A stretch of DNA of 56,208 bases from the NCBI GenBank assembly GCA_031281585.1, contig JAITFE010000138.1:1-56208 (forward strand), written 5' to 3'. The notes under the pieces were generated by a model. The model ran no database searches and was not told the origin of the DNA. It saw only the letters and a list, made by a program, of their open reading frames with translations. Every line of letters begins with the position of its first letter. The first letter of the stretch is position 1. This document shows, piece after piece, positions 37,437-54,251 of the stretch. Source of the stretch: Bifidobacteriaceae bacterium (GTDB lineage Bacteria > Actinomycetota > Actinomycetes > Actinomycetales > WQXJ01). Made by a program: the position numbers and the translations under genes.

Positions 37437-37456
37437 CGCCGCCTCCTCCCGACAAC

Positions 37457-38338
37457 TCAATCGGCGCGGCCGGACAAACGCTCGACCACCCGCAGCAAAG
37501 CTGAATGATCCAGGCTTCCGTCTCCATTGGCACGGGCCGTGGCAATCAACTGCGCGACTACTGAACCGAGGGGAATCACCACGGCCGCCTCCCTGGCCGC
37601 CGCCGTCACGATTCCCATGTCCTTGTGATGCAGATCGATGCGAAAACCGGGCTCGAACTGCCGAGCCAGCATAGATCCGCCCTTCAGTTCCAACACGCGG
37701 GAACCGGCGAGGCCACCGCCGAGGACCTTCAAAGCTGCCCCAGTGTCCACGCCATAAGCCTCCAAGAACACGATCGCCTCGGCAACCAACCCATAAACGC
37801 CGCCGACAATAAGTTGGTTCGCAGCCTTCACCGTCTGACCGGAGCCAGACGGCCCCAAATGCACCACAGTCGATCCCATCGAATCCAACAACGCTCTCGC
37901 GGCCTCGAAGCCATCCCGCTCGCCACCGACCATGATCGCCAAGGAACCGTCAATGGCGCCCTTCTCGCCCCCCGATACCGGTGCGTCCAAGGCCCAGATG
38001 CCTTTCGCCCGGCAAGCCACTCCCACTTCGCGTGACACATCGGGACGTATGGTCGACATGTCCACATATACCAAGCCTGGTTCTGCGTTTTCTAGCAGAC
38101 CGCCGGGACCGAAAACAACGACCCGGACGTCAGGAGAGTCCGGCAGCATCGTGACGAAGAAATCAACATCGGTGCACGCCTCCCCCACTGAACCTGCTGC
38201 CGCTCCGCCGGCCCCCACCAGTTTCTCCACCCCAGCGGGGTTAATGTCAAAGCCCTTTACCTCATGACCGGCCTTCAGTACGTTCAGCATCATCGGAACA
38301 CCCATGACGCCCAAGCCGACAATACCAACCCGTGCCAC
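37457..38338 (-). CDS. glxR: Tartronate semialdehyde reductase
   Basis: The GTG at 38,338, behind GGAAGGAG, gives 293 residues, the usual length. The NADH-binding motif is [34 protein letters not shown], the catalytic Lys in [14 protein letters not shown], and [11 protein letters not shown] and LDHSALL are all conserved as in GlxR/GarR. It makes D-glycerate from tartronate semialdehyde. The related 3-hydroxyisobutyrate dehydrogenase is the alternative, of note because an MmsA-like gene is adjacent. The neighbouring gcl and hyi decide for GlxR. No glycerate kinase gene is in the window. Confidence 0.92.
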
Positions 38339-38532
38339 AACCCTCTCCTTCCAAGAACAACTGAATCCATTTCTGGTCTTGCTTATAACAGTCTCCGCTA
38401 ACGCAGGTTTCCGCCTTCGATGGGCAACCTCCAACCAAGTGCGGCAGGCTCATTCGGGAAGTCTCCAACGGGGAACGGGCGGCTCGTTCTGACTGCGGCA
38501 TCGACTCGGCGCCTGGGCCGTTGCCCCCGGCA

Positions 38533-40038
38533 TCACGCTCCGATTGACGAGGTAGCCTGGAAGTGGAAAGCGGCCGTGGCCGCAGTCGGTTGGGGCCAGC
38601 GTTGCGTGACAACCTTCGCTTGCGTGAAGAACCTCACCCCCTCGGGGCCGTAGATGTGGGATTCACCCGCGAACGAGTCTTGCCAACCACCAAACGAGTG
38701 GTAGGCGACGGGCACTGGAATTGGTACGTTGACACCGATCATCCCGACTGGCACCGACCTTGCGAAACGTCGAGCCGCTTCACCTGATGAAGTGAAGATT
38801 GCAGCGCCGTTCCCATAGCGGTTGCTCTTGATAATCCCGATCGCATCATCGAGTTCGCGGGCCCGTAAGACAACCAAGACCGGGCCAAAGACTTCCTCAT
38901 GGTAGACCCGCATTTCTGCCGTCACACGGTCAATGATCGTGGGCCCTGTGAAAAAGCCCTCAGGTCGATTGCTGGGACGGAAACCGCGCCCATCCAGAAC
39001 TACGCGTGCACCCGCTGCCCTAGCTTCGGCAATGGTCTGTTCGATGCGGTCGCGGTGCGCCTTCGAGATTACCGGCCCCATGTCAACATCCGAGGACATG
39101 CCGTCGCCGACCTTGATTTCCCGTGCCTTCGCGACAAGGCAATCGAGGAGACGGTCTGCGACTTCCTCGACCGCTACGACCACTGGCAAGGCCATGCAGC
39201 GTTCTCCGGCCGCACCGAAAGCCGCCGCGACGACGCTTGCCGCCGCGAAGTCGAGGTCCGCGTCAGCAAGGACGACCCCGTGGTTCTTAGCACCACACAT
39301 CGCCTGAACCCGCTTGCCGTGGGCCGTACCGCCCCGATGTACTTCCTTGCCTACCCTTGTAGAGCCGACGAACGAGACCGAAGCAACGTCTACATGATTG
39401 ACAAGAGCCGTCGCCGCCCGTCCCTCGCCCTGCACAACATTGAAAACGCCTTCGGGGAGACCGGCGGCGGTCCACAACTGGGCAATGAAGACCGATGCTG
39501 AAGGATCCAATTCGGATGGCTTCAAGACGAACGTGTTCCCGCATGCGATGGCGACCGGCGCCATCCACAATGGACACATGACCGGGAAATTGAACGGTGT
39601 AATGCCCGCACAGACGCCCAGAGGCTCCCGGAACGAGAAGACATCAATACCGGTGGCGGCTTGTGCGGTGAATTCCCCCTTGAGCAGTTCGGGGATTCCG
39701 CATGCGAACTCGACAACCTCGAGTCCGCGGCTTACCTCTCCCAATGCGTCGGACAAGATCTTGCCGTGTTCTCGGGTCACAATTTCGCCCAATTCGCCTG
39801 CGTGCGCCTTGAGCAGTTCGCGGAATGCGAAAAGCACATCCGTTCGGCGACCGAGTGACACTCGCGACCATGCCTCGAAAGCGCGGCGCGACGACGCCAC
39901 CGCAGTATCGACCGCTTTTTCGTCACCAAGTTCAACGACGCCGATCCGCTCACCCGTAGCCGGGTTACAAATCGGATAGGTTCCGTAACCACCGGCGCCT
40001 ATTTCGCCGTCGATGTAGTGCGAAACCCTGTAGACCAT
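38533..40038 (-). CDS. mmsA: CoA-acylating methylmalonate/malonate-semialdehyde dehydrogenase
   Basis: The ATG at 40,038, after GAGGAG, gives 501 residues; the open frame upstream overlaps the CoA-transferase gene. It has GITPFNFPVMCPLWMAPVA, SFVGSTRVG, CGAKNHGVVLADADLD, and the nucleophilic Cys in GAAGERCMALPVVV. Loss of the general-base Glu in the GAKNH segment is diagnostic of CoA-dependent MmsA/IolA. These enzymes turn malonate or methylmalonate semialdehyde into acetyl- or propionyl-CoA with decarboxylation. It follows the CaiB gene by 32 bases, so a semialdehyde is an expected product of the upstream steps. Confidence 0.93.
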   Translation of the reverse strand: MVYRVSHYIDGEIGAGGYGTYPICNPATGERIGVVELGDEKAVDTAVASSRRAFEAWSRVSLGRRTDVLFAFRELLKAHAGELGEIVTREHGKILSDALGEVSRGLEVVEFACGIPELLKGEFTAQAATGIDVFSFREPLGVCAGITPFNFPVMCPLWMAPVAIACGNTFVLKPSELDPSASVFIAQLWTAAGLPEGVFNVVQGEGRAATALVNHVDVASVSFVGSTRVGKEVHRGGTAHGKRVQAMCGAKNHGVVLADADLDFAAASVVAAAFGAAGERCMALPVVVAVEEVADRLLDCLVAKAREIKVGDGMSSDVDMGPVISKAHRDRIEQTIAEARAAGARVVLDGRGFRPSNRPEGFFTGPTIIDRVTAEMRVYHEEVFGPVLVVLRARELDDAIGIIKSNRYGNGAAIFTSSGEAARRFARSVPVGMIGVNVPIPVPVAYHSFGGWQDSFAGESHIYGPEGVRFFTQAKVVTQRWPQPTAATAAFHFQATSSIGA

Positions 40039-40070
40039 GGCACAACTCCTCATCTTTGGGGACCGATAAA

Positions 40071-42350
40071 TCAAGAATTCCTCGAGGCAGGCCAAGTGCC
40101 TCCGCTCACCAGTTCGCTGTGTTCGCCAAGCGCCGGAGCCGGAAGAGGGTTCGGCGGGGAGTACCCCCTGAGGAGGAAGGGGAACCCCTTCCGCCGGGGT
40201 GGCCCACCCAGGAAGACACGCCGAGCAGAGAAATGCGGTTCTTGGCAGCGCTCGACTGCGGTGAGGACGGGAGCCGCAGGAACGCCAGCAGCGTTCAATC
40301 TGTCTGCGGCGACCCGAGGATCGTAGATTGAGGTCCACTCGCCTATCATCAGCCCAATCGTGCTCATTGCCTGCCTCCAGGCAGAGGCGGTGGCAGGCTG
40401 GACTGGCACACCGACCAGTCGACCGAGGGCCGCCCGCTCGTCGTCCGTCGTGCATGCGATCGCGACCCACCGGTCGTGTCCCCTGCACGGGTACACGTCC
40501 CTTGGCAAGCACCCTGGTCGGTCGTTGCCGGTCGGCCGCGCGATAGCGCCCGAATCAAGGTAGGCCTCGACAAGGTAGGCAATCGTCCACGTCACAGCCT
40601 CACGCTGCGCAATATCGAGGACCGCTCCCGTGACTCGACGGACCCAACAATACGCAACTAGCGCCGCGCCGAGCAACGAGACAAACTGATCAGGGTAATT
40701 GACCTCAGCAGAGGACCAAATCCCATCGCCGCCACGGTAGCCAGTGACTGATGCGAGACCTGACAACAGATCCAGCGTCGAACCGTACGAGCGGTAGCCC
40801 GACTCAGGTCCCGTCTGGCCCTGGCTGGATAGCGAAAGGTAAATGGAATCTGGGTTGGCGGCATGAATGGCCGCCGCGTCGACGCCGAGCTTTGCTGTCA
40901 CGCCAACACGGAAGTTCTCAATGACCACGTCAGCTTGGCCGGCGAGGTCCAGCAGCCTGCGCCGCTCGTTTGGATTCGTCAAATCGATGTCTATTCCTAG
41001 CTTGCCCGCGTTGTTTGAGTCGAACATCGGAGAGTCAGCGCCGCTGTCGCCTGTCAGGGCCTCCGGCCACTTCCGGAACGGATCTGGGCGGATGGTTGAT
41101 TCGACCTTGATCACATTACCGCCATAGTCGGCTAGCAGTCGGCCAGTTGCGGCTCCGGCAGTGATTGTCCCAAGGTCCAGCACGCGCAGGCCGTCCAGCG
41201 GTGCCCGTGGGTATGGTGATCGCGCCTTCGGTTCCCAACGGTGCCCTCGCCATTCCAGCGATGGATCACGGTCATCCGGGACCTGCCCAACATGCCAGGT
41301 GAGCGTGTCGGACTTGAACAGTGGCCCGATAGCCGGCCGTTCGCCGGAGCCCACAAAGCTGCGGGCACGGTACTGTTCTGACTCAGCCAGGTCTGCGACG
41401 TTGGCGAGGTATCCGAATGCTAGCCCCGCCGCTTGGGCTTCGTGATAAGCCTCTTCCTTGGTCCTGGCGGCGGCCCAGTCGCGCACCGCAGGCCACCATG
41501 CGGCTGCCTTCGCCCGACGAACGACAGCATCGCACAAAGCGGGGTCTGCCAGTCGCTGATCGGCGATGAGGCTAACCATCGCCGCCCACTGAGACGGCTG
41601 GAAGATCACACCCAGGCCGCCGTTCTGCGCCTCGACGATCCTCCACGCTCCGCCCTCGACACCCGAGCGGCTTGGCGGCATGCCGGTCCGATCGGCCACG
41701 ATGTCGCTCTTCCAGTCGACGTATGCCGCCAGGTCCGCCAACGCCACATCAACGACATCGCCACCGTGCCCTTGGGCCAAGCGCTGCAGAGCGATCATGG
41801 CACCGAAGAATCCAGCGATGCCTCCCATGTAGCAGGTCTGGTGGCCGCCAAGGGTCAAAGGCTTGTTGCCCGGTTCGCCGATCATCGTAAGGAGCCCACC
41901 ATATGCCTCCGCCAACAAGCTGTCCTCGGGAAGGGATGCAGCTTCGGTCAAGCCGAGCGTAGTGACCGAGACGACGACAAGTTGGGGCCAGCGCGCCCGG
42001 AGGGTGTCTGCGTCCGCACCAAGCCACGCTGCATCGCGGTCGATGATCACGATGTCGGCACCCTCAAGGGTCTCGCATAACTCGGACGAGAGTCCTGGCG
42101 GGTCCCAGCGAACGATTCTCTTACCTTGGGCCAGGGCTGCGAACATGTGACCCACGCCGTCAGAACGCAGCGGCGGCGTTCGGCGCAGGCGGTCGGCAGC
42201 AGTGGGCTCGAATTTGATCACGTCCTCGCCCAACGCTGCGAACAAACGACCACAGCACGGACCAGCTATGCCCTGAGCGAGTTCGACAATCCGCAAAGCG
42301 CCGGGACGTATCGTCCCACCTGCCGTCTCCCCTGGCGGACCGTTCATCAT
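40071..42350 (-). CDS. Double-domain CaiB/BaiF family III CoA-transferase
   Basis: A 759-residue fusion of two family III CoA-transferase domains. The first (about 14-380) begins RIVELAQGIAGPCCGRLFAALGEDVIKFEP, the second (about 386-759) LRVLDLGTITAGAATGRLLADYGGNVIKVES. The catalytic Asp that forms the CoA thioester is visible in the second (NYPDQ, Asp554). At the corresponding site of the first I see GHQTCYMGG without Asp, so only one half seems active. Normal enzymes are interlocked dimers of about 400 residues. It overlaps the crotonase gene by four bases and probably activates the acid substrate of region C. Confidence 0.88.
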   Translation of the reverse strand: MMNGPPGETAGGTIRPGALRIVELAQGIAGPCCGRLFAALGEDVIKFEPTAADRLRRTPPLRSDGVGHMFAALAQGKRIVRWDPPGLSSELCETLEGADIVIIDRDAAWLGADADTLRARWPQLVVVSVTTLGLTEAASLPEDSLLAEAYGGLLTMIGEPGNKPLTLGGHQTCYMGGIAGFFGAMIALQRLAQGHGGDVVDVALADLAAYVDWKSDIVADRTGMPPSRSGVEGGAWRIVEAQNGGLGVIFQPSQWAAMVSLIADQRLADPALCDAVVRRAKAAAWWPAVRDWAAARTKEEAYHEAQAAGLAFGYLANVADLAESEQYRARSFVGSGERPAIGPLFKSDTLTWHVGQVPDDRDPSLEWRGHRWEPKARSPYPRAPLDGLRVLDLGTITAGAATGRLLADYGGNVIKVESTIRPDPFRKWPEALTGDSGADSPMFDSNNAGKLGIDIDLTNPNERRRLLDLAGQADVVIENFRVGVTAKLGVDAAAIHAANPDSIYLSLSSQGQTGPESGYRSYGSTLDLLSGLASVTGYRGGDGIWSSAEVNYPDQFVSLLGAALVAYCWVRRVTGAVLDIAQREAVTWTIAYLVEAYLDSGAIARPTGNDRPGCLPRDVYPCRGHDRWVAIACTTDDERAALGRLVGVPVQPATASAWRQAMSTIGLMIGEWTSIYDPRVAADRLNAAGVPAAPVLTAVERCQEPHFSARRVFLGGPPRRKGFPFLLRGYSPPNPLPAPALGEHSELVSGGTWPASRNS

Positions 42351-43147
42351 GTTCTCCGCCCGGAGTTTCCCCTGCCATCGGTGAGGGCCCCAAGCTCTTG
42401 GTCCAAGCGCTCGGTTCGCGCACGAATCTGGGTTCCTACGCTCTCACCGTATTCAAGGGCTGCCCGCCACTCGGCGATGTTTCCAGGCACCTGCTGAAGG
42501 GAGCGTTTGCACCACTCAAGCGTGACGGGATCGTATGCAGCAATCTGGCGGGCGAGCACTTCGGATTCTTCGTCGAGCGTCTCGCGAGGAACGCTTCGGT
42601 TCACGAGCCCCCAAGCTTCAGCAGTCTGACCGTTGATGCGAGAAGCTGTGAGCACCATCCAAGCTGCATGCTTCGGCAGAAGACGTAGCTGGGTCGAGGG
42701 GCCAGCAACTCCAGGATAGAGGCCAAAGCTGGCCTCCGGCATTCCGATCAGCGCCTCGTCAGCCGCGATTGCAAGGTCGGAAGTGTTGATGAGAGTGACG
42801 CCGCCGCCGAGCGCGTACCCGTTGACTGCAGCGATCACTATTGAAGGGTGCGCCCGGATCTCATGCTGGACATTTGTCCACATTGTGCGGCGTCGAACGG
42901 CGTCGCCCACATCATAAGCCTCGCCCGAAGCCACTTCTTTGAGGTCCATCCCCGCGCAGAAGGAAGTTCCCGCGCCCGTGATGATCAGAACCTTGGCCTT
43001 CCCGTTGGTTGCGTCCAGGGCATCCACCAATGCTTTCCTCGCTGCGAAATCCATCGCGTTGCGCTTGGCTGGCCGGTTCAGTATTATCCGGAAAACGCCG
43101 TCGCCCAAGTCATTCAGCAAGACACGAGCGGGCTCCTCCTCGCTCAC
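42347..43147 (-). CDS. Enoyl-CoA hydratase/isomerase family protein
   Basis: A 266-residue crotonase with a GTG start. It has LNRPAKRNAMDFAARKALV, FCAGMDLKEVASG, AAVNGYALGGGVTLINTSDLAIAAD and MPEASFGLYPGVAGPS with the catalytic Glu. Hydratase activity is plausible. The four-base overlaps with the DUF35 gene before it and the CaiB gene after it show tight coupling. In the proposed pathway it would hydrate an enoyl-CoA to the 3-hydroxyacyl-CoA that the thiolase-fold/DUF35 pair cleaves. Confidence 0.9.
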   Translation of the reverse strand: MSEEEPARVLLNDLGDGVFRIILNRPAKRNAMDFAARKALVDALDATNGKAKVLIITGAGTSFCAGMDLKEVASGEAYDVGDAVRRRTMWTNVQHEIRAHPSIVIAAVNGYALGGGVTLINTSDLAIAADEALIGMPEASFGLYPGVAGPSTQLRLLPKHAAWMVLTASRINGQTAEAWGLVNRSVPRETLDEESEVLARQIAAYDPVTLEWCKRSLQQVPGNIAEWRAALEYGESVGTQIRARTERLDQELGALTDGRGNSGRRT

Positions 43148-43554
43148 GACACGACCCGGAATTTCGGGATTATCCGGTCTGCGGGGCTCTTGACGAATTC
43201 GACTTTGAGCGGTGCATCGACTTCAAGCTGGTCAGGTGGATCAATGAGGGAACTGACCATCAGCGGTCCTTCTTCAAGCTTGATCTGGACAACGAGGTAT
43301 GGCCTCAGCTCATCGAAGGCCTCAAAGTAGCGCTGGTGCATGATGATCCACGACCAAAGGGTGGCACGACCGCTGACTGGCTTCCAGGTATGCGCATCAC
43401 AGAGGCATTCAGGGCAGCAGGGCGCGTCGGGGTAACGCATGGCGCCGCACGCGTCACACTGCTGCAAACGGAGTTCACCCTGGGCGAGGCCATCCCAATA
43501 CTGCCTGTTCGTGTCAGTGACGGGCGGCAGGAGCCGCGCGTAGGAATCGTTCAT
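43144..43554 (-). CDS. DUF35 zinc-ribbon/OB-fold protein
   Basis: A 136-residue protein. The zinc ribbon uses Cys33, Cys36, Cys47 and Cys50 (QQCDACG...CCPEC), followed by an OB-fold (VSGRATLWSWIIMHQRY...YLVVQIKLEEGPLMVSSLI). DUF35 proteins bind acyl-CoA and partner thiolase-fold enzymes: ChsH2 with Ltp2 in the steroid side-chain retro-aldolase, and AcnX- or BbsA-type pairs elsewhere. Here the thiolase-fold gene is immediately upstream (10-base gap), which supports a complex of the two products. Confidence 0.92.
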   Translation of the reverse strand: MNDSYARLLPPVTDTNRQYWDGLAQGELRLQQCDACGAMRYPDAPCCPECLCDAHTWKPVSGRATLWSWIIMHQRYFEAFDELRPYLVVQIKLEEGPLMVSSLIDPPDQLEVDAPLKVEFVKSPADRIIPKFRVVS

Positions 43555-43564
43555 GACGCTCCGT

Positions 43565-44713
43565 TCAACTTGCTGTAAGGACGTGTGCCGTCAGGACAGG
43601 TGCGACACAGATGTACTGGGCTACGCGGCAGTTAGGGACTTGTCGGTCGCCAGCTTCACCTCGCAACTGGCGGACCGCCTCGACATGATGAGCCCAGCCT
43701 TGCATGTAACTCTCGGACGTATGGCCGCCAGCGGTGTTTACTGGTCGCGGTCCTTCCAGTGAAATCCGCCCGTCCTGGATCCACTGCCATGCGGTGCCAC
43801 GCTCCGTGTGCCCGAAGCCCTCAAGGCTGAACAGGATGGTCGGAAGGAAGTTGTCGTACACCTGTAGGATGTCCATGTCGAGCGGACCTATGCCGGCCTG
43901 GGCATATAGACGCTCCGCGACGTTCGCCGACGCCCCATAAAAGAAGTCCTCGCTTTGATAGTAGTTTCGCAGTTCGGCACCCCCTGCCGTGGCCGCTATC
44001 GTGACTGGCGTCTTCTTGAGGTCACGTGCACGGTCGAGGGTAGTTACGATGAGGGCCACCCCACCGTCGTTGATCAGGCAGTAATCGAACAGCCTCATCG
44101 GCTCGGCTATGTAGCGAGACGCAAGATACTCTCCCAACGTGAGCTCCTTGCGCATCACCGCGACAGGGTTGAGGCTGGCGTTGCGACGCTGATTGAGAGC
44201 AAGGGGCGCGAGTGCGTCGTCGGGGGCTCCATAGAGATTTCGGTACCGCTGGTACATTAGGGCAACTGACGCGCCCGGCGAAGTCATGCCATAGATCCAG
44301 TTATAGGCATCGGTGGATCCGGCGCTCTCGCCCTCGCCGCCGTATTTCATCGCAACCGAACGTCCGTTGTTGCCGTATATGAGGGCAACGGTGGTCGCAA
44401 GGCCAGCCCGGATGAGACCAATGGCTTCTTGGACAGCAATTCCGCTCATGCGGCCCGAGCCTTCGAGATCATGGACAAAATGCAGATTCCGCAGACCGGC
44501 CACGGTGGCCATACGGGCATAGTCGACGCGTGAGCAAATCATCGCGTCGATGTCACCCTTGTCTACCCCCGCGTCGTCAATGGCCGCCCGCAGCGCGGCG
44601 GCACCTAGCCCAAAAGCATCGCGGAACTCGTCCCGGTGACGGTAGAGCGCTCCGAAGTCGGAATGCCCCACCCCTACAATGGCAATGTCGTGGCCTGCTG
44701 CTGGGATTGTCAT
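43565..44713 (-). CDS. Thiolase-fold SCP-x/Ltp2-like protein, probable acyl-CoA retro-aldolase subunit
   Basis: A 382-residue thiolase-superfamily protein of the SCP-x/lipid-transfer type (AIVGVGHSDFG; EAIGLIRAGLATTVALIYG; MTSPGASVALMYQRY; VNTAGGHTSESYMQGWAHHVEAVRQLRGEAG). Where thiolases have the nucleophilic Cys, this sequence reads EGSGRMSGIAVQ with no Cys, so a Claisen thiolase reaction is unlikely. Ltp2-type aldolases lack the same Cys and cleave 3-hydroxyacyl-CoA together with a DUF35 protein, which is encoded next. The gene overlaps the regulator gene by four bases. Confidence 0.85.
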   Translation of the reverse strand: MTIPAAGHDIAIVGVGHSDFGALYRHRDEFRDAFGLGAAALRAAIDDAGVDKGDIDAMICSRVDYARMATVAGLRNLHFVHDLEGSGRMSGIAVQEAIGLIRAGLATTVALIYGNNGRSVAMKYGGEGESAGSTDAYNWIYGMTSPGASVALMYQRYRNLYGAPDDALAPLALNQRRNASLNPVAVMRKELTLGEYLASRYIAEPMRLFDYCLINDGGVALIVTTLDRARDLKKTPVTIAATAGGAELRNYYQSEDFFYGASANVAERLYAQAGIGPLDMDILQVYDNFLPTILFSLEGFGHTERGTAWQWIQDGRISLEGPRPVNTAGGHTSESYMQGWAHHVEAVRQLRGEAGDRQVPNCRVAQYICVAPVLTAHVLTAS

Positions 44714-45387
44714 TTTGAGCCTAACTCTTCGAAAAGATCGAGCGCTTTCAAGGCTGCCGCCTTCGCTGCCTGAACATGCCGAGTGGACGCCTGAACCGCA
44801 CCGTCGCGGTCGCGGGCCTGGATCATCATCGCAAGCTCCAAGTACTCGTTCACCGAAGCTCTCTCTCGGTCCGGCAAGGACGTCGACAGTCTCCGTAGGG
44901 CGTGGATGCGCGCGTGGATCGTCGCAAGGAAGTCTTCCAACACTGGGTTGCGGGCACCTCGTGCCAACAATTCGTCGAACCGATAGATGGATCGCAGCCG
45001 AACCTCGCTTGCAGTTCCGATTGGTTCAATGCAAGTGATCAAATCGCCAATTTCGTCATCTGTTGCCCGCTGGACGAACAGGCCCGCAGCCGCCGGCTCG
45101 AGGGCCAAGCGGACCTCATATATGTGCTCGACATCCTCTCGAGTGACCCTCGCGACCTGCACACCCCTGCTCGGCGAAGGCTCCACGAGGCCAATCTGCT
45201 CAAGGTGTCGGACCGCCTCACGGATCGACGTTCGACTGGCTCCTGTGTATTCAATGAGCTCTGGCTCGGTCAACCGGCGTCCGGGCTCCAGTCGGCCGTC
45301 GACGATGGCTCGAGACAGCAGTCGAACGACCTGCCCCGGGACCGTCTCCTCGGGTCGGCGAATCTGCAGATTCAGGTTTGCGGTCAC
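44710..45387 (-). CDS. GntR-family regulator with FCD domain
   Basis: A 225-residue regulator with a GTG start. The winged helix is at about 15-80 (AIVDGRLEPGRRLTEPELIEYTGASRTSIREAVRHLEQIGLVE). The all-helical FCD effector domain follows. FCD proteins usually bind a metal through Asp and three His; here RFDELLARGARNP and EYLELAMMIQARDRDGA replace two of the His, so metal binding may be altered. It is the first gene of the region C operon and divergent from the Dpp-type operon. TACnnnGTA sites overlap both promoters, so it probably controls itself and both operons. Confidence 0.9.
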   Translation of the reverse strand: MTANLNLQIRRPEETVPGQVVRLLSRAIVDGRLEPGRRLTEPELIEYTGASRTSIREAVRHLEQIGLVEPSPSRGVQVARVTREDVEHIYEVRLALEPAAAGLFVQRATDDEIGDLITCIEPIGTASEVRLRSIYRFDELLARGARNPVLEDFLATIHARIHALRRLSTSLPDRERASVNEYLELAMMIQARDRDGAVQASTRHVQAAKAAALKALDLFEELGSK

Positions 45388-45442
45388 GAACTGGAATCCT
45401 CGCTAGCTTGCTAGTTATGACGTACGGGGCACTAACGAGTAC

Positions 45443-45473
45443 ATCATACGGGGTACCTGTAGCAGCCTGTCAA
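45443..45473 (-). promoter_or_regulatory. Promoter of the GntR gene and region C operon
   Basis: On the minus strand TTGACA (45,468-45,473) and TATGAT (45,443-45,448) lie 19 bases apart, slightly more than the optimum. Operator candidate 2 overlaps the -10 element. Confidence 0.5.
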
Positions 45474-45531
45474 TCAGATTCGCGAATGATGAGCGAAAGC
45501 CCAGGTCAGACGGTCAGTTGCCATCGAGGTA

Positions 45532-45561
45532 TTGACAGACCTGGGCGGTCGCAACTAGAGT
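45532..45561 (+). promoter_or_regulatory. Promoter of the Dpp-type operon
   Basis: TTGACA (45,532-45,537), an 18-base spacer and TAGAGT (45,556-45,561). The expected transcription start at about 45,568 is just before operator candidate 3. The leader to the ATG at 45,800 is about 230 bases and contains no gene I can support. Confidence 0.55.
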
Positions 45562-45799
45562 TGCCTGAATCTTCGTCATACGAAGTACGTACTCCTCTCA
45601 ATGAAGACAGGCAAATGGCGTGTGGCATCCCAGACAGGCACGCTGGTGAGATCGAACCCAGCCCCTCTGGCGTTGCGCCGTGCCACCGCGTGTCGGCCCG
45701 GCGGATCGTCCGGTACGGGCGAACACTGCTCGGCAGCTCCGCATACAGCACACGGCGAGCCGGGCAATAGTCAAATTCAGGCAAAGAAAGGCTCATCCA

Positions 45800-47356
45800 A
45801 TGTCCAGATTCCGAAGCGTGATCGGTGGCTTTGCTACCCTAACCTTGCTGACCTCCCTAGCCGCCTGCAACGGGAACAGCGGAGAAGACGAGAAAGAGCC
45901 AGCGAAAGGCACCAGTACAGAGGAAGCCAACGTTGATCTAGAAACGTTCACGTTCAACTACCGATTCAACCCGCAGCACTTTGATCCTGCAACGACAGAG
46001 GGATCAATGATGAACACAATGATGTACCCGGTTTACGACCGCCTCATCTGGCCGGACGATTCCGGTAACCTTTTACCGCAATTGGCCGAATCCTGGGAGT
46101 ACTCCGACGACAGCCTGTCAATGACGCTTCACTTGCGCGAAGGCGTGACGTTCCAAGATGGTTCTGCGTTCAACGCCGAAGCGGTCAAGGCGAACCTAGA
46201 ACGCACGCGGACCGTAGAAGGCGGCACTCAGAAGGTACTTCTAGCGTCCATAGCTGACATCGAAGCCGTTGACGATCTGACGGTCACCCTCACGCTAGAC
46301 AAGCCCGATAGCACACTTCCTTATGCGTTCGCAGACGCTGCCGGGATGATGATGAGCGTCGCTGCTTTCGACGACGCGAAGCTCAACCCCGTGGGAGCTG
46401 GGCCGTTTGTCCTTGACGAGTTCATCCCTGGCCAGTCGATCACCTACCACAAGTGGGACGACTACTGGGATGCCGACTCAATCCACGTCAAGAACCTTCG
46501 CCTGAATCTCATTGTGGACACGACCACGGCGTTCAACTCGCTTCAGGGCGGCGAGGCCGATGCCTCGGACTTGAGCCCAAGCGACGCTGAGCAGGCCGAG
46601 TCACTCGGATTCATAGTCGAGGCTCGCCCCACGACCGCTTGCTACAGGATCTACATGAATCCTGAGAAGGCCACGCCAATGGCAGATCCAAGGGTCCGCG
46701 AAGCGCTTAATCTTGCGATCGACCGGCAGGCTCTGGCCGACGGAATCTATATGGGCTTCGCTGAGCCCACGGCTCAGTACTTCCCCGAGTCGATGCCGTA
46801 CTACAACCCCGATATCCCCAAGTACACGTACGACCCGGAGAGGGCCAAGGAACTCCTCGCCGAGGCGGGTTATCCTGACGGCTTCACCTACGTTTCGAGC
46901 GCTACTACGACTTACCCCGACCAAAACGTCGCTGTGCAGGCGATGCTCGCCGAGGTCGGAATAGACGTGACCTATGAGGTGAAGAATGGAGCGGAGGCTG
47001 GCAACGCGTACTTCAGCGGCCAGACTGACGCCATGATCGCATCGTGGGGCGGCAGGCTTGATCCGCTCGCGACGATCCAGTTGCTGACCGGCACAGGTTC
47101 AACGCAGAACCCAGGCAACCTCAACACTCCTAAGCTCTTGAGCCTCATCGATCAGGCCCTCGCGGCAACCGGCAGCAGCGATGAACGCAATGAAATCATC
47201 AAGCAGATTAGTCAAGAGATCTACGACCAGTCGCTCAACGTGCCGATCGTACTGTCCTCTGGCGTCATTGCCCATCGCGAAGGCATTGAGGGGCTGCCCG
47301 CTCCGCAGTGGTCGGATCGCTCCTACGACTTCCGTCACGTCAAAGCGGTCGGTTGA
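45800..47356 (+). CDS. Dpp/Opp-type ABC importer binding lipoprotein
   Basis: The ATG at 45,800, following GAAAGG, gives 518 residues with an ordinary lipoprotein signal (MSRFRSVIGGFATL..., lipobox SLAAC). The mature protein has the SBP_bac_5 pattern: FNPQHFDPATTEGSMMNTMMYPVYDRL, LAESWEYSDDSLSMTLHLREGVTFQDG, NPVGAGPFVLDE and DPRVREALNLAIDRQALADG. Such proteins bind peptides but also glycosides, nickel chelates or plant-derived small molecules. It heads the importer operon. Confidence 0.93.
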   Translation: MSRFRSVIGGFATLTLLTSLAACNGNSGEDEKEPAKGTSTEEANVDLETFTFNYRFNPQHFDPATTEGSMMNTMMYPVYDRLIWPDDSGNLLPQLAESWEYSDDSLSMTLHLREGVTFQDGSAFNAEAVKANLERTRTVEGGTQKVLLASIADIEAVDDLTVTLTLDKPDSTLPYAFADAAGMMMSVAAFDDAKLNPVGAGPFVLDEFIPGQSITYHKWDDYWDADSIHVKNLRLNLIVDTTTAFNSLQGGEADASDLSPSDAEQAESLGFIVEARPTTACYRIYMNPEKATPMADPRVREALNLAIDRQALADGIYMGFAEPTAQYFPESMPYYNPDIPKYTYDPERAKELLAEAGYPDGFTYVSSATTTYPDQNVAVQAMLAEVGIDVTYEVKNGAEAGNAYFSGQTDAMIASWGGRLDPLATIQLLTGTGSTQNPGNLNTPKLLSLIDQALAATGSSDERNEIIKQISQEIYDQSLNVPIVLSSGVIAHREGIEGLPAPQWSDRSYDFRHVKAVG

Positions 47357-47392: not shown

Positions 47393-48334
47393 ATGTCACT
47401 CGCTCTTCGACTGCTCCGGATGGTTTTTACCCTGGTGCTCGCCAGCGTGATCGTATTCGGGCTGGCTCTGCTGGTGCCCGGAGATCCCGCTTTCACTCTC
47501 GCAGGGGAATCAGCCACTCCGGAGCAGATCGAAGAGGTGCGTCGGGCACTAGGTCTTGACCAGCCCGCCCACCTCCAGTTTCTCAATTGGGCTAGTCGAG
47601 CGATTCACGGAGACTTGGGCAAATCGCTATTCAGCGGCCAGCCCGTTGCAACAGAGATCGCACGCCGACTACCAGTGACCCTCTCGGTAGCACTGTTGGC
47701 GACCGCCATGGCAACCGTGTTGAGCATCATCGTAGGACTACTCGCGTCGCTGCGGCGCGGCACCTGGATTGACCGTACGGTCACGGGCGTTGCGTCCGTC
47801 GCGATGGCGATGCCTGAATTCTGGGTTGGCCTGCTGCTGGTTTCTTTATTCGCATTGAAGCTCGGTTGGTTTCCAGTTGCCCAATACGTTCCGTTGAGCG
47901 AAAACCCGAGCCAATGGCTAATGCATTTGGTGCTGCCGGCCATGGCCTTGGGCGTGACCAAGACAGCTGAGTTGGCGCGCCAAGTGCGCAGCTCTATGTC
48001 GCAGGTTCTTGAGGAGAACTACATTCGCACGGCCCGAGCCAAGGGCCTGCGTTCGGTTCAGATCATCGCGAAGCACGCCCTCAAGAACGCCGGAACAGCC
48101 TTCGTTACGGTGCTAGGCGTGCGCATCGCGGTACTTCTGGGCGGCGTCATAGTGATTGAGCGGGTTTTCGCACTACCAGGTTTAGGAAGCTTGATGGTCA
48201 ATTCAGTTCTAGCGCGGGATCTGCCTATGGTCCAAGGTGTCGCGATCGCGATCGCCGTGATGGTGTTGATCATCAACTTCCTCGTCGATCTGTCCTACAG
48301 GTTCTTCAATCCAAGGGTTCGAGTGATCGGATGA
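47393..48334 (+). CDS. Dpp/Opp-type ABC importer permease (DppB)
   Basis: A 313-residue inner-membrane permease with six helices. GDLGKSLFSGQPV marks the family's periplasmic loop, and NYIRTARAKGLRSVQIIAKHALKNA is the EAA loop. Its TGA overlaps the following ATG (ATGA). It belongs with the binding protein 36 bases upstream and the DppC-type permease downstream. Substrate specificity is set by the binding protein and cannot be told here. Confidence 0.94.
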   Translation: MSLALRLLRMVFTLVLASVIVFGLALLVPGDPAFTLAGESATPEQIEEVRRALGLDQPAHLQFLNWASRAIHGDLGKSLFSGQPVATEIARRLPVTLSVALLATAMATVLSIIVGLLASLRRGTWIDRTVTGVASVAMAMPEFWVGLLLVSLFALKLGWFPVAQYVPLSENPSQWLMHLVLPAMALGVTKTAELARQVRSSMSQVLEENYIRTARAKGLRSVQIIAKHALKNAGTAFVTVLGVRIAVLLGGVIVIERVFALPGLGSLMVNSVLARDLPMVQGVAIAIAVMVLIINFLVDLSYRFFNPRVRVIG

Positions 48335-49299
48335 CTGCGAATCAGCATGTGGACGACTGCGTCCCCGACTCATTGGACGAAGCAGCTCAGCGCTGGTCGG
48401 TTGAGCGAGCCAAGGAACTGGCTGCCAAGACCGCGCCGGCTGCCCCACCGACCTCCGCCGCGCGACGTTTCTGGCGACGGTTCCGCCACCAGAAACTCGC
48501 AATTGCCGCCGCCGTAGTGCTCATTTTTCTGGTTCTGCTCGCCTTCTTCGGCGACGCGATCTACCCAGTAGACCCGAACCAACAAGCACTCGGCGACAAA
48601 TTGCTCCCGATCGGCTCTCCAAAACACGTCCTTGGAACAGACGTGTTCGGACGAGACGTCTTGAGCCGGCTGATCTCTGGGACGAGCATTTCGCTCGCTG
48701 CGGGAGCCATAGCCGTTAGCGTGGCAGTCGTCTTGGGCGTACCGCTCGGACTCATTGCTGGGCTGTATCGTGGCTGGCCTGACCAAGTGCTCTCCCTGGT
48801 AATGGACGCCCTTATGAGTTTCCCTAGCCTGCTGCTGGCCATCGCAATCGTGGCAGCCCGCGGCCCCGGCCTGGTAAACTCGATGGTCGCCATCGGCATC
48901 ACCCAAGTGCCCCGGCTCTTTCGACTGGTGCGCAGCGTGGTTCTCTCCGTGCGCGAGGAGACCTACGTAGACGTGTCAAGGTCGATCGGCACGTCGAACC
49001 TTCGCATAGCGATCACCCATCTGGTGCCGAACATGATGCCACCAGTGTTAGTGCAACTCACGGTGTTCATGGCCCAGGCGATGCTCGGCGAAGCAGCCCT
49101 AAGCTTCTTGGGCCTCGGCGTCATGCCGCCGCAAGCGAGTTGGGGCGCTATGCTCTCAGACGCATCGCGGTACCTGTCCAGTGCGCCGCTCATGATAGTT
49201 TGGCCCGGGGTTTGTATCGCGCTGACGGTGCTAGCGCTGAACGTTTTGGGGGACGGCTTGCGCGACTCCCTTGGGCGCGAAGTCAGGACCGGACGATGA
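48331..49299 (+). CDS. Dpp/Opp-type ABC importer permease (DppC)
   Basis: A 322-residue permease. The N-terminal OppC_N segment has AARRFWRRFRHQKLAIAAAVVLIFLVLLAFF. HVLGTDVFGRDVLSRLISG is the conserved loop, and TYVDVSRSIGTSNLRIAITHLVPN the EAA region. It is coupled by four-base overlaps at both ends to the DppB- and DppD-type genes. It forms the translocation pore with DppB. Confidence 0.94.
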   Translation: MTANQHVDDCVPDSLDEAAQRWSVERAKELAAKTAPAAPPTSAARRFWRRFRHQKLAIAAAVVLIFLVLLAFFGDAIYPVDPNQQALGDKLLPIGSPKHVLGTDVFGRDVLSRLISGTSISLAAGAIAVSVAVVLGVPLGLIAGLYRGWPDQVLSLVMDALMSFPSLLLAIAIVAARGPGLVNSMVAIGITQVPRLFRLVRSVVLSVREETYVDVSRSIGTSNLRIAITHLVPNMMPPVLVQLTVFMAQAMLGEAALSFLGLGVMPPQASWGAMLSDASRYLSSAPLMIVWPGVCIALTVLALNVLGDGLRDSLGREVRTGR

Positions 49300-50333
49300 A
49301 CAGCGCCGCCGAGCTTAACTTGGACCAAACGGCCGACGGGATCGGTCCCGTACTTGATGTTCAGGGCCTCACGGTCGAACTGGCAACCGCCGGGGGCTGG
49401 ACTCGCATCATCGAAGACGTGACTTTCGCAGTCAAACCAGGCACGGCGGTCGGAATTGTCGGGGAGTCGGGTTCTGGTAAGTCGGTGACGGCCCTGAGCG
49501 TAATGGGTTTGCTGCCGCAGAGCGGCAGCCGAATTGTCTCCGGTAGCGTCACTCTTGACGGCGAGGAATTGTTGGGTCAACCCGAACGGAGGCTTCAGGA
49601 CATTAGGGGCAACCGGATGACGATGATCTTTCAAGAGCCGATGTCGTCTCTCAATCCAGCCTTCACAGTCGGCTATCAGATTGCCGAATTGGCGCGACGA
49701 CACTTGGGTGCCTCAAAGCGCGAAGCAACTCAGATGGCCATTGAAGTCCTTGACCGCGTCGGGATCCCCAACGCGAAGCAAAGAAAAGACAGCTATCCTC
49801 ACGAATTCTCCGGAGGAATGTGCCAACGTGTACTGATTGCTATGGCGATTCTGTGCAATCCCCGTGTTCTCATAGCCGACGAGCCCACCACCGCACTCGA
49901 CGTCACGATCCAAGCGGGCATTCTGGATCTGCTCAAGGAAATGGTTAGGGAGCTGTCTATAGGCCTGGTCCTTGTTACACACGATCTCGGCGTGATAGCG
50001 GACGTGTGCGACCGAGTTGCGGTCATGTACGGAGGCCAGATCGTGGCCGCCGATGACGTTCAAGGCGTGTTTGCCCACCCAACGCATCCGTACGCAGAGG
50101 GACTGATGGTTTCATTGCCGCAAATCGGAACGGGTTCGCGTGCCCTTGCCACTATCCCGGGCGAAGCTGTGACTCCAGACGCCATCCCGCCCGGCTGCCG
50201 CTTCCACCCCCGGTGCCCATTCGCGCAAGAACGGTGCTCCATCGATCAGCCCACCTTGAGAACGCTGCACGGGGGCGCCATGACCCGTTGCCCACGGTAC
50301 GAAGAACTGGACCTGAAGGGACCGGCGCGATGA
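49296..50333 (+). CDS. Dpp/Opp-type ABC importer ATPase (DppD)
   Basis: The ATG at 49,296 overlaps the DppC stop; an earlier in-frame start would overlap more than 150 bases, so the product is 345 residues. Walker A is GESGSGKS, signature FSGGMCQR, Walker B VLIADEPTTALD, and H-loop VTHD. The C-terminal oligo_HPY part has the Cys cluster CRFHPRCPFAQERCSID...RC, the site of the [4Fe-4S] cluster described for Dpp-family ATPases. It pairs with the DppF-type ATPase. Confidence 0.94.
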   Translation: MNSAAELNLDQTADGIGPVLDVQGLTVELATAGGWTRIIEDVTFAVKPGTAVGIVGESGSGKSVTALSVMGLLPQSGSRIVSGSVTLDGEELLGQPERRLQDIRGNRMTMIFQEPMSSLNPAFTVGYQIAELARRHLGASKREATQMAIEVLDRVGIPNAKQRKDSYPHEFSGGMCQRVLIAMAILCNPRVLIADEPTTALDVTIQAGILDLLKEMVRELSIGLVLVTHDLGVIADVCDRVAVMYGGQIVAADDVQGVFAHPTHPYAEGLMVSLPQIGTGSRALATIPGEAVTPDAIPPGCRFHPRCPFAQERCSIDQPTLRTLHGGAMTRCPRYEELDLKGPAR

Positions 50334-51391
50334 GCGAAGTGACAGCGAGCGACACGGTCCGACCTGACGAAGACCGCCGGGTCCTGACTGTCTCGGGCCT
50401 AAGTGTGGAGTTTGCAATCAAGGGAGCACATGGCCGCAAAGCGAGGCTCCGGGCGGTTGACGACGTGAGTTTCGACCTTCGAGCCGCTGAAGTCATCGGT
50501 CTGGTAGGAGAGTCCGGTTCAGGCAAAACAACGACCGGGCGGGCTCTCATGAGGTTGGTCGAGCCAAAGGCCGGCAGGGTCATACTGGCTGGACGAGACA
50601 TCACCAACCTGTCCCAACGGCAGCTACGGCGCTATCGCCGGCATGTGCAGATGGTGTTCCAGGACCCGATGGCCTCCCTTGATCCCAGCATGGTAATTGG
50701 GGATAGCGTCGCTGAGCCGTTAATCGTACACGAACGACTCAGCCGCCAGGCAAGGGACGCCAAAGTGGGCGAGCTCCTTTACCAGGTAGGCCTGTCCCCG
50801 GCCCTATCCGGCCGCTACCCGTACGAACTGTCTGGGGGACAACGTCAACGCGTATCAATTGCGCGGGCTATTGCCGTCCGCCCAGACGTGCTGGTTTGCG
50901 ACGAAGCCCTCAGCGCGCTGGACGTGTCCGCGCAGAACGGGATTATCCGTCTGCTTGACGAATTGCGCGAGAACCTAAGCACGGCGTTAGTCTTCATCAG
51001 CCACGATCTCTCGGTGGTTCGCAACTTGGCAGACACCGTGGCAGTCATGTACTTGGGACAGGTCGTGGAGTCAGGTCCCACGGAACGGGTCTACCATGAG
51101 CCGGCACATCCTTACACCAGGGCGCTCCTTTCCGCAGTGCCCGTGCCAAATCCTGAAATCCAGAAGACCCGGCAACGCATTCGGCTGCTTGGAGAGCCGC
51201 CCGATCCCGCAAACCCTCCTCCCGGCTGCGCGTTCGGTCCGCGGTGCGCCAACGCCATTGACATATGCCACACGAGCCCACCACCCCAGGTTGCTGCCGC
51301 CTGCGGCGTCACGGTGCGGTGCCACCTTACCCAAGGCACAGCGCGGCCAGCCGATCCGCGCCTTTCCCAGATGAGCCGCGAAAAGCTCTAG
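50330..51391 (+). CDS. Dpp/Opp-type ABC importer ATPase (DppF)
   Basis: The ATG at 50,330 overlaps the DppD stop by four bases; the product is 353 residues. Walker A is GESGSGKTT, signature LSGGQRQR, Walker B VLVCDEALSALD and H-loop ISHD. The C-terminal part has CAFGPRCANAIDICHTS...VRCHL, a second Cys cluster. The two ATPases form a heterodimer powering the DppBC pore. It is the last importer component; the PrpD-family gene follows after 24 bases. Confidence 0.94.
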   Translation: MSEVTASDTVRPDEDRRVLTVSGLSVEFAIKGAHGRKARLRAVDDVSFDLRAAEVIGLVGESGSGKTTTGRALMRLVEPKAGRVILAGRDITNLSQRQLRRYRRHVQMVFQDPMASLDPSMVIGDSVAEPLIVHERLSRQARDAKVGELLYQVGLSPALSGRYPYELSGGQRQRVSIARAIAVRPDVLVCDEALSALDVSAQNGIIRLLDELRENLSTALVFISHDLSVVRNLADTVAVMYLGQVVESGPTERVYHEPAHPYTRALLSAVPVPNPEIQKTRQRIRLLGEPPDPANPPPGCAFGPRCANAIDICHTSPPPQVAAACGVTVRCHLTQGTARPADPRLSQMSREKL

Positions 51392-51415
51392 ACAGTCTCC
51401 AACCAATGAAAGTAA

Positions 51416-52915
51416 GTGATCAACATGAAGGATCGAACTGCCGAGATAGCGCCGACACTACTGGGGTCCCCGCCCTTGACGCGTACCGTCGCGGGAATTG
51501 GCCCCAAGGTCCGCCTGTCAGAAGTGCCAGACCGAGTCATTCAGCGGGTGAAGTGCTGCTTCCTTGATTGGCTAGGTGTAGCGATCGCTGGATCGGCGAC
51601 CGAGCCGACCCGCATTCTCCGCAATGTCGTGACGCGTTCCGCTGGGGATGGAACCTGCTGCCTACTAGGCGACGATTTCCGCATGACCGGTCCAGTCGAA
51701 GCAGCCTTGATCAACGGGTTGGCCGGCCACGAAATGGACTTTGACGATGTCGCGATCGCTATACATCCTTCGGCGGACATTATGCCCGCGTCACTCGCCG
51801 TTGCGCAGGATCGAGACGCTTCCGGCGAGCGCTTCATCGAAGCAGTAGTCACAGGCCAGGAGACGAGCGGTCGAGTCGAACGCCTGGTCGGCTACGCTCA
51901 CTATGATGCTGGTTGGCACGTGACGGGAACCGTTGGCACCTTCTCTGCTGCCGCAGCGGCCGCCAAGATTCTGGGATTGGATCTGGCGCAGATCGAAATG
52001 GCCCTTGGGATCGCTGGGACCCAAGCAGCGGGGCTGCGGGCTGTCTTCGGCTCAATGTGCAAGTCATTCCACGCGGGCAAAGCGGCGAGCAACGGAACCC
52101 TCGCCGCGCTGCTTGCCGAGGCGGGCTTCACATCAGCGCCAAACATACTCGAGGCGGAATACGGCTTCGTCTGGGCCGAATCATCCCGTGCCCAAGCCGA
52201 GGCCCTCAATGACTACTACGGCGAGCAATGGGTTGCCTCAGCGGGTCCTTCCGGTGCCGAAGCTGCCCTGCGTCCGCTCGGAGACCCATATCTGGCGGAC
52301 GAGATAATCCCCAAGATGTGGGCATCCTGTGCCTCAGCACACTCGGCCATCGGAGCGGTTGAACTGCTCCGCGAGGAGCACGGCATCATAATGGATCAGA
52401 TCCAAAAGGTTGTGGCATACATCCCGCCTTTCGCGCTCGACCACGCAGGGATTGAGAATCCTCGCACGGGCTTGGAAGGAAAGTTCAGCGTCCGATATGC
52501 GGTAACCGCTGCCCTTCTTGGCTACGACACGATGGGGGCAGCGTTTACAGATGAAGCCGTAAACTCCCCCGAGGCAAAGGAAGCCATCAAGTGCGTGCAG
52601 GCCGTTTATGCCCCCTCGACCACGCGGAATGCTCCGAGTGAGGTACACGTCACGCTGAAGAATGGCCAGCGCCTAGTCAAGTCCTTCGATCACCACGACC
52701 ACATCGCAGGTTGGGAGAAACTCAGCTACAAATTCAACCACATTGTGCCCCCTATCACCGGGCCCGATGTGGCATCTCGGCTGGAAGACGCCGTCTTCCA
52801 CCTTGAAGGCCTGGCATCGATGCGAGCAATAACCGATATTCTTCGGGATGCCGACATTGCCGCGACGGCTTCCCCCCAGGGGGACACGGAAGACTTCCAA
52901 GAGCGAGGTGTTTGA
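51416..52915 (+). CDS. MmgE/PrpD family protein
   Basis: A 499-residue protein of the 2-methylcitrate dehydratase/cis-aconitate decarboxylase superfamily. GTG 51,416 or ATG 51,425 may be the start; neither has a good ribosome site. The helical domain has VIQRVKCCFLDWLGVAIAGSATEPTRI. The active-site motif is HEMDFDDVAIAIHPSADIMPAS, with the DFDD and HPS residues intact, in contrast to the other family member at 32,377. MCKSFHAGKAASNG is the conserved Lys/Gly loop. It follows the importer genes closely and probably acts on the imported compound by dehydration or decarboxylation. Confidence 0.9.
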   Translation: MINMKDRTAEIAPTLLGSPPLTRTVAGIGPKVRLSEVPDRVIQRVKCCFLDWLGVAIAGSATEPTRILRNVVTRSAGDGTCCLLGDDFRMTGPVEAALINGLAGHEMDFDDVAIAIHPSADIMPASLAVAQDRDASGERFIEAVVTGQETSGRVERLVGYAHYDAGWHVTGTVGTFSAAAAAAKILGLDLAQIEMALGIAGTQAAGLRAVFGSMCKSFHAGKAASNGTLAALLAEAGFTSAPNILEAEYGFVWAESSRAQAEALNDYYGEQWVASAGPSGAEAALRPLGDPYLADEIIPKMWASCASAHSAIGAVELLREEHGIIMDQIQKVVAYIPPFALDHAGIENPRTGLEGKFSVRYAVTAALLGYDTMGAAFTDEAVNSPEAKEAIKCVQAVYAPSTTRNAPSEVHVTLKNGQRLVKSFDHHDHIAGWEKLSYKFNHIVPPITGPDVASRLEDAVFHLEGLASMRAITDILRDADIAATASPQGDTEDFQERGV

Positions 52916-52916
52916 A

Positions 52917-54251
52917 ATGTCGAAGTACGCTTCGGAATCCGGCGAAATCGTGATGACCATCACGGGTGAAAGCTTGATCACCAGGCCGGTGTCAATCTAC
53001 ACTGAGCCCGAGTTCACCCAGCTTAGGGAACTCATCCGGTCTGCCGATGCAGCATATACGCATATCGAAATGCTTTTTCACGACTACGAGCATCCGCCGG
53101 AGACCAACGAGCTGGATCCAAGTTTCGCTGTAAACAAGACCGCTCTGCGCGCCGCGCCCTCTATTATCAAAGAACTGCAGTGGCTCGGCCTCAACATCAC
53201 ATCCAACGCCAACAACCATTCCTGGGATTTCGGGCCTGGAGGGTTGCTGACTAGTAAGCGGCATCTCGACGAACACGGATTGGTGAACGCTGGCGCAGGT
53301 AGGAACAGGGCCGAAGCTCATGCCCCCGCGTTTCTGGACACAAGGGCAGGAAGAGTCGGCATCGTCGCTTGCACCGACTGTGGACCGGCGCAAAGCCGCC
53401 CAGGCGACCAGCGCCGGGACATGATCGGGCGACCGGGAGTCATGTGGCTACGCCCTTGGGCGGAGTATTCGGTTGATGTCGCTACCTTTGAAACTTTGCG
53501 CCTAATGGCCTCACGGATTGGTAACCAGGACAGCCACAAGCAGCCCTTCTTTCAGAGATTCGAGAAAGACTCTGATTCGGTGTTCCATCTTGGCGGGCAA
53601 CCTATGTACACTCCTTACCCAGTGACCCGATACGTCCGGGGCGACGACTTCTCCTTCCGGCGAACCGCCGATCCCGACGACCTCCGGGCGATAGTCAGAC
53701 AAGTTGATATCGCAAAGCGATCCGCCGACTGGGTCATCTTGTCGATCCACACCCACGAGGGAGGGGTTCTGCCGGAGGAATCGGGCGGCCATTTCGTAGA
53801 AGCTGCTCACGAGGCAATTGACGCCGGCGCGGACATCGTGGTCGGCCACGGACCGCATCGCGACCGCGGCATTGAGCTGTATCAAGGAAAGCCGATTCTG
53901 CATTCGCTGGGCTACCTGTTCCATCAGGCCGAGACGGTTCCGCTGCAGCCGCAGGACAGCTATGACCTGGCGGGCCTGGGCTGGGACTCCGATGCGGTGG
54001 ACTATTACGACATGCGGAAGCCTGTGCGCTACGATTCAAGCATTGTCAGGGCGAGGATCACATCCGACGGTCTCAAACTCGAGGTGTTTCCTATTGAGTT
54101 GTCAAACAACGGCAGACGAAGCACCCACGGTCGGCCAATGCTCGCCACGGGGGAAGATGCTGACCGAATTCTGGGCGAAATGGCCCGGATGTCTGCCGCC
54201 TTGGGCACCGAGATGACCATCGCAGGTGACTGCGGCGTAATTCAACTGTGA
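52917..54251 (+). CDS. CapA/PgsA-family metallophosphoesterase-fold protein
   Basis: The ATG at 52,917 directly follows the PrpD stop, giving 444 residues. CapA-family landmarks are ITGESLI, AYTHIEMLFHDYE, ITSNANNHSWDFGPGGL, IVACTD, WVILSIHTHEGG, and VVGHGPHRDRGIELYQGKPILHSLGYLFHQ. The His/Asn/Asp metal-site residues are kept. There is no signal peptide or membrane anchor, whereas PgsA proteins of poly-gamma-glutamate synthesis are membrane-bound. A cytoplasmic hydrolase of the imported compound is more likely than capsule synthesis. It ends the Dpp-type operon. Confidence 0.9.
   Translation: MSKYASESGEIVMTITGESLITRPVSIYTEPEFTQLRELIRSADAAYTHIEMLFHDYEHPPETNELDPSFAVNKTALRAAPSIIKELQWLGLNITSNANNHSWDFGPGGLLTSKRHLDEHGLVNAGAGRNRAEAHAPAFLDTRAGRVGIVACTDCGPAQSRPGDQRRDMIGRPGVMWLRPWAEYSVDVATFETLRLMASRIGNQDSHKQPFFQRFEKDSDSVFHLGGQPMYTPYPVTRYVRGDDFSFRRTADPDDLRAIVRQVDIAKRSADWVILSIHTHEGGVLPEESGGHFVEAAHEAIDAGADIVVGHGPHRDRGIELYQGKPILHSLGYLFHQAETVPLQPQDSYDLAGLGWDSDAVDYYDMRKPVRYDSSIVRARITSDGLKLEVFPIELSNNGRRSTHGRPMLATGEDADRILGEMARMSAALGTEMTIAGDCGVIQL

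Follow-up and report, generated by a model that had tools for sequence, protein, structure and literature searches.

In the stretch of DNA analysed here (the window; 56,208 nucleotides), two candidate operators, B and C, very probably belong to the FCD-type GntR regulator encoded at 44710-45387, which is predicted to be the autorepressor of a divergent regulon for import and catabolism and to be released by a compound of the pathway. The first-pass annotation had linked import to catabolism through a single GntR protein, and this link is now very probable in view of: (i) a motif that is unique in its genome; and (ii) five genome-unique copies of it around homologous regulators in a second genome (G955), which belongs to another bacterial family. 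Autorepression that closes both import and catabolism is suggested by the location of B and C, since both lie at positions suited to repression.

Gene neighbourhood of the divergent region

The following features of the window are relevant here:

35661-44713, minus strand: catabolic genes downstream of gntR
44710-45387, minus strand: GntR regulator of the FadR subfamily (GntR and FCD domains), first gene of the catabolic operon
45411-45425, plus strand: site A (weak, uncertain), CTAGTTATGACGTAC, centre 45418
45439-45456, minus strand: operator B (strong candidate), minus strand GTACCCCGTATGATGTAC, core centre 45446
45443-45473, minus strand: likely gntR promoter, read by eye, with TTGACA (45473-45468), a 19-bp spacer and TATGAT (45448-45443)
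45532-45561, plus strand: promoter of the Dpp operon, TTGACA-18-TAGAGT, a 10/12 consensus match in the promoter scan
45571-45588, minus strand: operator C (strong candidate), minus strand GTACTTCGTATGACGAAG
45800-47356, plus strand (frame from 45680): substrate-binding lipoprotein of family 5 (SBP_bac_5)
47393-52915, plus strand: two Dpp/Opp permeases, two ATPases and then an enzyme of the MmgE/PrpD family

The regulator matches both PF00392 (6.1e-13) and PF07729 (9.6e-22) past the cut-off, with an N-terminal GntR winged helix and a C-terminal FCD domain; its recognition helix is GASRTSIREA. Two models of specific regulators stay below their cut-offs with this protein: the NanR family model PRK03837 (58 bits, cut-off 260) and the PhnR model TIGR03338 (79.5 bits, curated cut-off 271.5). 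The catabolic operon encodes, in its first part, a thiolase-like protein, its OB-fold/zinc ribbon partner, an enoyl-CoA hydratase and a double CoA-transferase III; and, in its later part, a dehydrogenase of the methylmalonate-semialdehyde type, a tartronate-semialdehyde reductase, a glyoxylate carboligase and a hydroxypyruvate-isomerase-like protein. The CoA-transferase III protein (759 aa, 40071-42350) has two matched stretches and is apparently a fusion of two units; the CoA-transferase III genes of G955 are two separate ones. On the other side, the lipoprotein likely starts at ATG 45800 rather than at GTG 45680, judging from its lipoprotein-like start. The PrpD gene is adjoined by a PGA_cap-type protein (52848-54251) related to the model of the lasso-peptide epimerase MslH.

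Candidate sites between gntR and the Dpp operon

Three TACnnnGTA sites had been proposed for this intergenic region. Two of them are exact (45447-45455, TACGGGGTA; 45579-45587, TACGAAGTA), but the third, at 45423-45431, reads TACGGGGCA, with one mismatch to the pattern, and is weak. Its proper register is likely that of site A, where a single good half-site (ATGACGTAC) is found. Regarding the promoters, two sites had been placed over that of gntR: one is clear, as B overlaps the likely -10 hexamer TATGAT, but the other is weak and would fall downstream of the gntR start point. The likely gntR promoter escaped the promoter scan for spacers of 16-18 nt because its 19-bp spacer exceeds those limits. 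The site described as lying just past the Dpp -10 (45579) is confirmed, together with the consensus promoter itself; relative to the predicted start of Dpp transcription, site C runs from about +3 to +20. The divergent arrangement has, in consequence of these locations, one candidate operator per promoter, B at the gntR side and C at the Dpp side.

The common 13-mer that had been reported, TCATACGnnGTAC, is present exactly at 45444-45456 and 45576-45588. The objection that it might be a commonplace word falls away: the 4.0-Mb genome holds no third copy and only four matches with one mismatch (first-order Markov expectation for the 13-mer, 0.26 per genome). Still, a repeat of 11 of 13 bases arises in 45% of dinucleotide shuffles of the intergenic region, so the repetition alone is weak evidence and was rejected as proof by itself. 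Two TACnnnGTA occurrences appear in 0.12% of the shuffles, for a pattern that was chosen after the fact.

Site C contains a perfect 15-bp palindrome, CTTCGT-CAT-ACGAAG (CTTCGTCATACGAAG, 45571-45585, centre 45578), next to an accessory GTAC box at 45585-45588. Within it, a core dyad of the GT-N3-AC type (TNGTNNNACNA) reads TCGTCATACGA at 45573-45583, and comparable palindromes occur in 0.6% of shuffles. Apart from site C, TTCGTNNNACGAA has no exact copy in the window's genome. The dyad of site B is imperfect (CGT-ATG-ATG); its GTAC box is at 45453-45456.

The same operator in a second genome

About 1,500 genomes were searched with the GntR protein or with its neighbour proteins. Beside the weaker case of G1110 (see below), G955 was the only one with informative GntR relatives: it encodes two, with 39-40% identity and an identical recognition helix. 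The cluster around them includes SBP5, permeases, ATPases, two CoA-transferases III, a thiolase, an OB-fold protein, two enoyl-CoA hydratases (ECH) and PrpD, that is, the same gene families as in the window, with matched proteins that are only 27-32% identical; BLAST gave no significant match for the OB-fold pair of the two clusters. No glyoxylate genes were seen in the examined part of the G955 cluster.

The intergenic regions of G955 repeat GTATGAY in a fixed context. A composite 14-base word, GTAYNNYGTATGAY, has exactly two matches in the window's genome (sites B and C) and exactly five in the whole G955 genome, all within 24 kb around the two homologous GntR genes, against Markov expectations of 0.33 and 0.69, respectively; the reversed control pattern has no match in either genome. 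The word was formulated after B, C and four G955 sites had been seen. The match at C1:1970460 lies outside the stretch from which it was drawn, where a gene for a CoA-transferase III begins, whose family is also present in the operon of the window. The sites in G955 precede SBP5, CoA-transferase, OB-fold/thiolase, ECH and PrpD genes, mostly just upstream; no site was seen immediately before the GntR genes of G955 themselves. Another word, CGTATGATGT, has two copies in G955, both in the cluster, and one in the window's genome, at B.

A matrix built from seven G955 sites alone, and hence out of sample for the window, ranks B second and C third among its ~112,000 positions; site A, even in its proper register, ranks only 215th, which does not support the idea of three equal sites. 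That the repeat arose by chance and has no function is, despite what the shuffled intergenic regions allow, scarcely credible in the face of the uniqueness of the motif in the genome, these matrix ranks and the clustering in G955.

Two operators of G955 (L085:6144-6160 and L132:6461-6480) share GGTATCATGTATGACATCGTACGTC almost entirely, which suggests that the operator may have been copied recently between promoters in that genome.

One other word was dropped as regulon evidence. CGTATGACGT occurs ~40 times across the G955 genome (e.g., L097, L099, L105; C1:807091-807134 and 998390-998433), in many instances as inverted pairs at a distance of 34 bp (GGGACGTCATACG...CGTATGACGTCCC), and seems to be a dispersed stem-loop repeat unrelated to the regulon. 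For this reason, only CGTATGATGT and GTAYNNYGTATGAY were counted. Four other CGTATGACGT copies in the window's genome look placed inside reading frames.

Relatives beyond the second genome

No close relative of the GntR protein was present in the sampled genomes of the genus, family or order, and no thiolase relative beyond about 40% identity in the phylum; a contig scan returned only a Paenibacillus relative (25%). Across 197 further genomes from the order, a slightly longer word had five single matches, which is the chance level. In G1110, a weaker site (GACGTATGCTGTC) lies upstream of the gene for a GntR relative with 37-38% identity; it reads TCTGAC-GTATGCT-GTCAGA and has the same centre as the window dyad. 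Plasmid-borne proteobacterial relatives (~37%) were not taken as evidence, since the GTATGA words upstream of them are only loosely similar and appear in some cases.

The distribution of the motif bears on the idea that B and C are operators of another transcription factor, encoded elsewhere. This is very unlikely, as the motif accompanies GntR proteins of this type in a second family too, where it is confined to the cluster with the two GntR relatives, and its core is all but missing upstream of 29 GntR proteins that are more distantly related.

Architecture of the operator

Eight sites, seven of them distinct, were aligned from the window and G955 (five distinct sites from the latter). GTAY stands at columns 8-11 in 7/8 sites and is followed by GTATGAY at columns 15-21. 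When all centres are compared over the seven distinct sites, column 18 (the T of ATG) gives the best dyad. At offset 4 from this centre, columns 14 and 22 are C and G in five distinct sites, while the pair is T-A in one and T-G in another; over offsets 3-6, the row-shuffle p is 0.027. In addition, GTA recurs at a lag of 7, with identity in 7, 6 and 6 of the seven distinct sites.

The dyad of the first-pass annotation, TACnnnGTA (centre column 13), does not hold up in this alignment: its C-G pair exists only in the two window sites (row-shuffle p 1.0), and the five distinct sites from G955 have T-G or A-G at columns 11 and 15. The outer T-A and A-T pairs of this dyad are kept only because TA is self-complementary inside the direct repeat. 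On this alignment, the 13-mer is to be read as one half of the core (TCATACG) followed by the accessory GTAC box and not as a TACnnnGTA palindrome; the predicted operator itself would be a GT-N3-AC dyad of the FadR/FCD type, centred on ATG/CAT, with a GTA box 7 bp away.

The same data weigh on the model from which that dyad came, in which three TACnnnGTA sites are present and B and C are bridged by a loop of ~130 bp. Its strengths are the two exact TACnnnGTA occurrences and the precedent of the tetrameric FCD regulator Atu1419, which forms a 190-bp loop between its two operators (PMC7797058). Together with the failure of the dyad and of the 45423 site to fit the pattern, the spacing renders the model improbable: B and C are 132 bp apart, i.e., 12.6 helical turns, and looping is disfavoured because they lie out of phase.

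A different reading gives the direct repeat priority. As in NanR, tandem 7-bp units (GTAYNNY-GTATGAY-GTN) would each be bound cooperatively by a dimer of their own. The lag-7 identity agrees with it, and so does the G955 site before SBP5, which consists of three tandem units (GTATGGC-GTATGGC-GTATGAC); NanR is known to bind (GGTATA)3 with three dimers (PMC8012715). However, the covariation at offset 4 and the row-shuffle value for offsets 3-6, the perfect 15-bp palindrome at C and the TCTGAC-N7-GTCAGA arms found on the same centre in G1110 all speak for a dyad. Besides, the cooperativity of NanR needs an N-terminal extension of 32 residues (PMC8012715), whereas in the window GntR the GntR domain match is preceded by only ~18 residues. 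The NanR-like array is, in short, possible but doubtful. Tandem repeats as the only symmetry of the sites were rejected, since the dyad is conserved too.

Comparison with known FCD regulators

No experiment on the window GntR protein was found in the literature. Operators of the FadR subfamily typically have GT and AC separated by three bases (TKGT-N3-ACMA), and weaker additional half-sites occur 7-12 nt from their centre; in divergons, each promoter often has a site of its own, and Ser at position 40 of the helix is accompanied by a G/C pair at site positions 6/14 (PMC4494728). The region under study resembles these divergons (Suvorova et al., 2015; PMC4494728) in several aspects: (i) a GntR+FCD regulator with divergent regulator/catabolic and import operons; (ii) a site near each promoter, with a GT-N3-AC core and an accessory half-site at 7-12 nt; and (iii) Ser54 at position 40, in our own numbering, which takes FadR Thr47 as position 40, along with the pair at 6/14, where columns 14/22 of the alignment are C/G in five of the seven distinct sites. 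It differs from them in that the core of the window and G955 sites is CGT-ATG-AYG instead of TKGT/ACMA, with an ATG that is invariant at the centre of every one of them, and their accessory GTA box is conserved almost like the core.

Escherichia coli NanR, with its (GGTATA)3 operator (PMC8012715), is likewise an FCD regulator and shares the direct-repeat phasing of GTA-containing units; unlike NanR, the present system has a 7-bp unit (GTATGAY), a dyad that is also conserved and no evident long N-terminal extension. Agrobacterium fabrum Atu1419, of the VanR type (PMC7797058), also has two FCD operators in one intergenic region, one of them over the -10, but it recognises a ATGTATACAT palindrome with 190-bp spacing and demonstrated looping, while here the sites are predicted, 132 bp apart and out of phase.

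It is possible, though tentative, that a small and undescribed group of FCD regulators acts on CoA-linked catabolic clusters by means of a composite operator, with a GT-ATG-AY dyad plus in-phase 7-bp tandem GTA boxes. Such an operator would combine the FadR and NanR modes, and the number of boxes might tune cooperativity at each promoter.

Regulatory model

In the preferred model, the GntR dimer would read the GT-ATG-AY core as a FadR-type dyad, aided by the GTA box that flanks it on one side at 7 bp. On site B, the dimer would cover the -10 of its own operon and, in this way, repress the regulator together with the catabolic genes; on site C, it would block transcription initiation of the Dpp import operon. 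GntR would be freed by a small molecule of the pathway, which may be a CoA ester or an acid common to both clusters, so that import and breakdown are switched on together. As for the identity of this molecule, glyoxylate is possible, but an earlier intermediate may be weakly favoured because the G955 cluster, in its examined part, showed no glyoxylate genes.

The joint control of the import and breakdown of one nutrient by a gntR divergon is an ordinary, well-known type of control. The case is of value in several respects: (i) an uncharacterised regulator is given an exact candidate operator; (ii) the strong-site regulon in its own genome is reduced to just the gntR/Dpp divergon; (iii) a Dpp-type importer is joined to CoA-dependent catabolic genes, which aids the search for the substrate; and (iv) the same operator in two families, at 40% regulator identity, makes a clean case for the study of dyad and accessory box in GntR proteins.

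Other elements of the intergenic region

The leader from the predicted Dpp start point to ATG 45800 measures ~230 nt (45568-45799); it gave no match in an Rfam search. An inverted pair of 10 bp with widely separated arms, TTGCCTGAAT/ATTCAGGCAA (45561-45570 and 45775-45784), is associated with it. Around the Dpp -35, an imperfect 15-bp inverted repeat (GCGAAAGCCCAGGTC / GACCTGGGCGGTCGC, 45493-45552), with 30 nt between its arms, is a possible site for a second regulator. Finally, a short inverted repeat, CTAGCttGCTAG (45403-45414), lies just before the ribosome-binding site of gntR.
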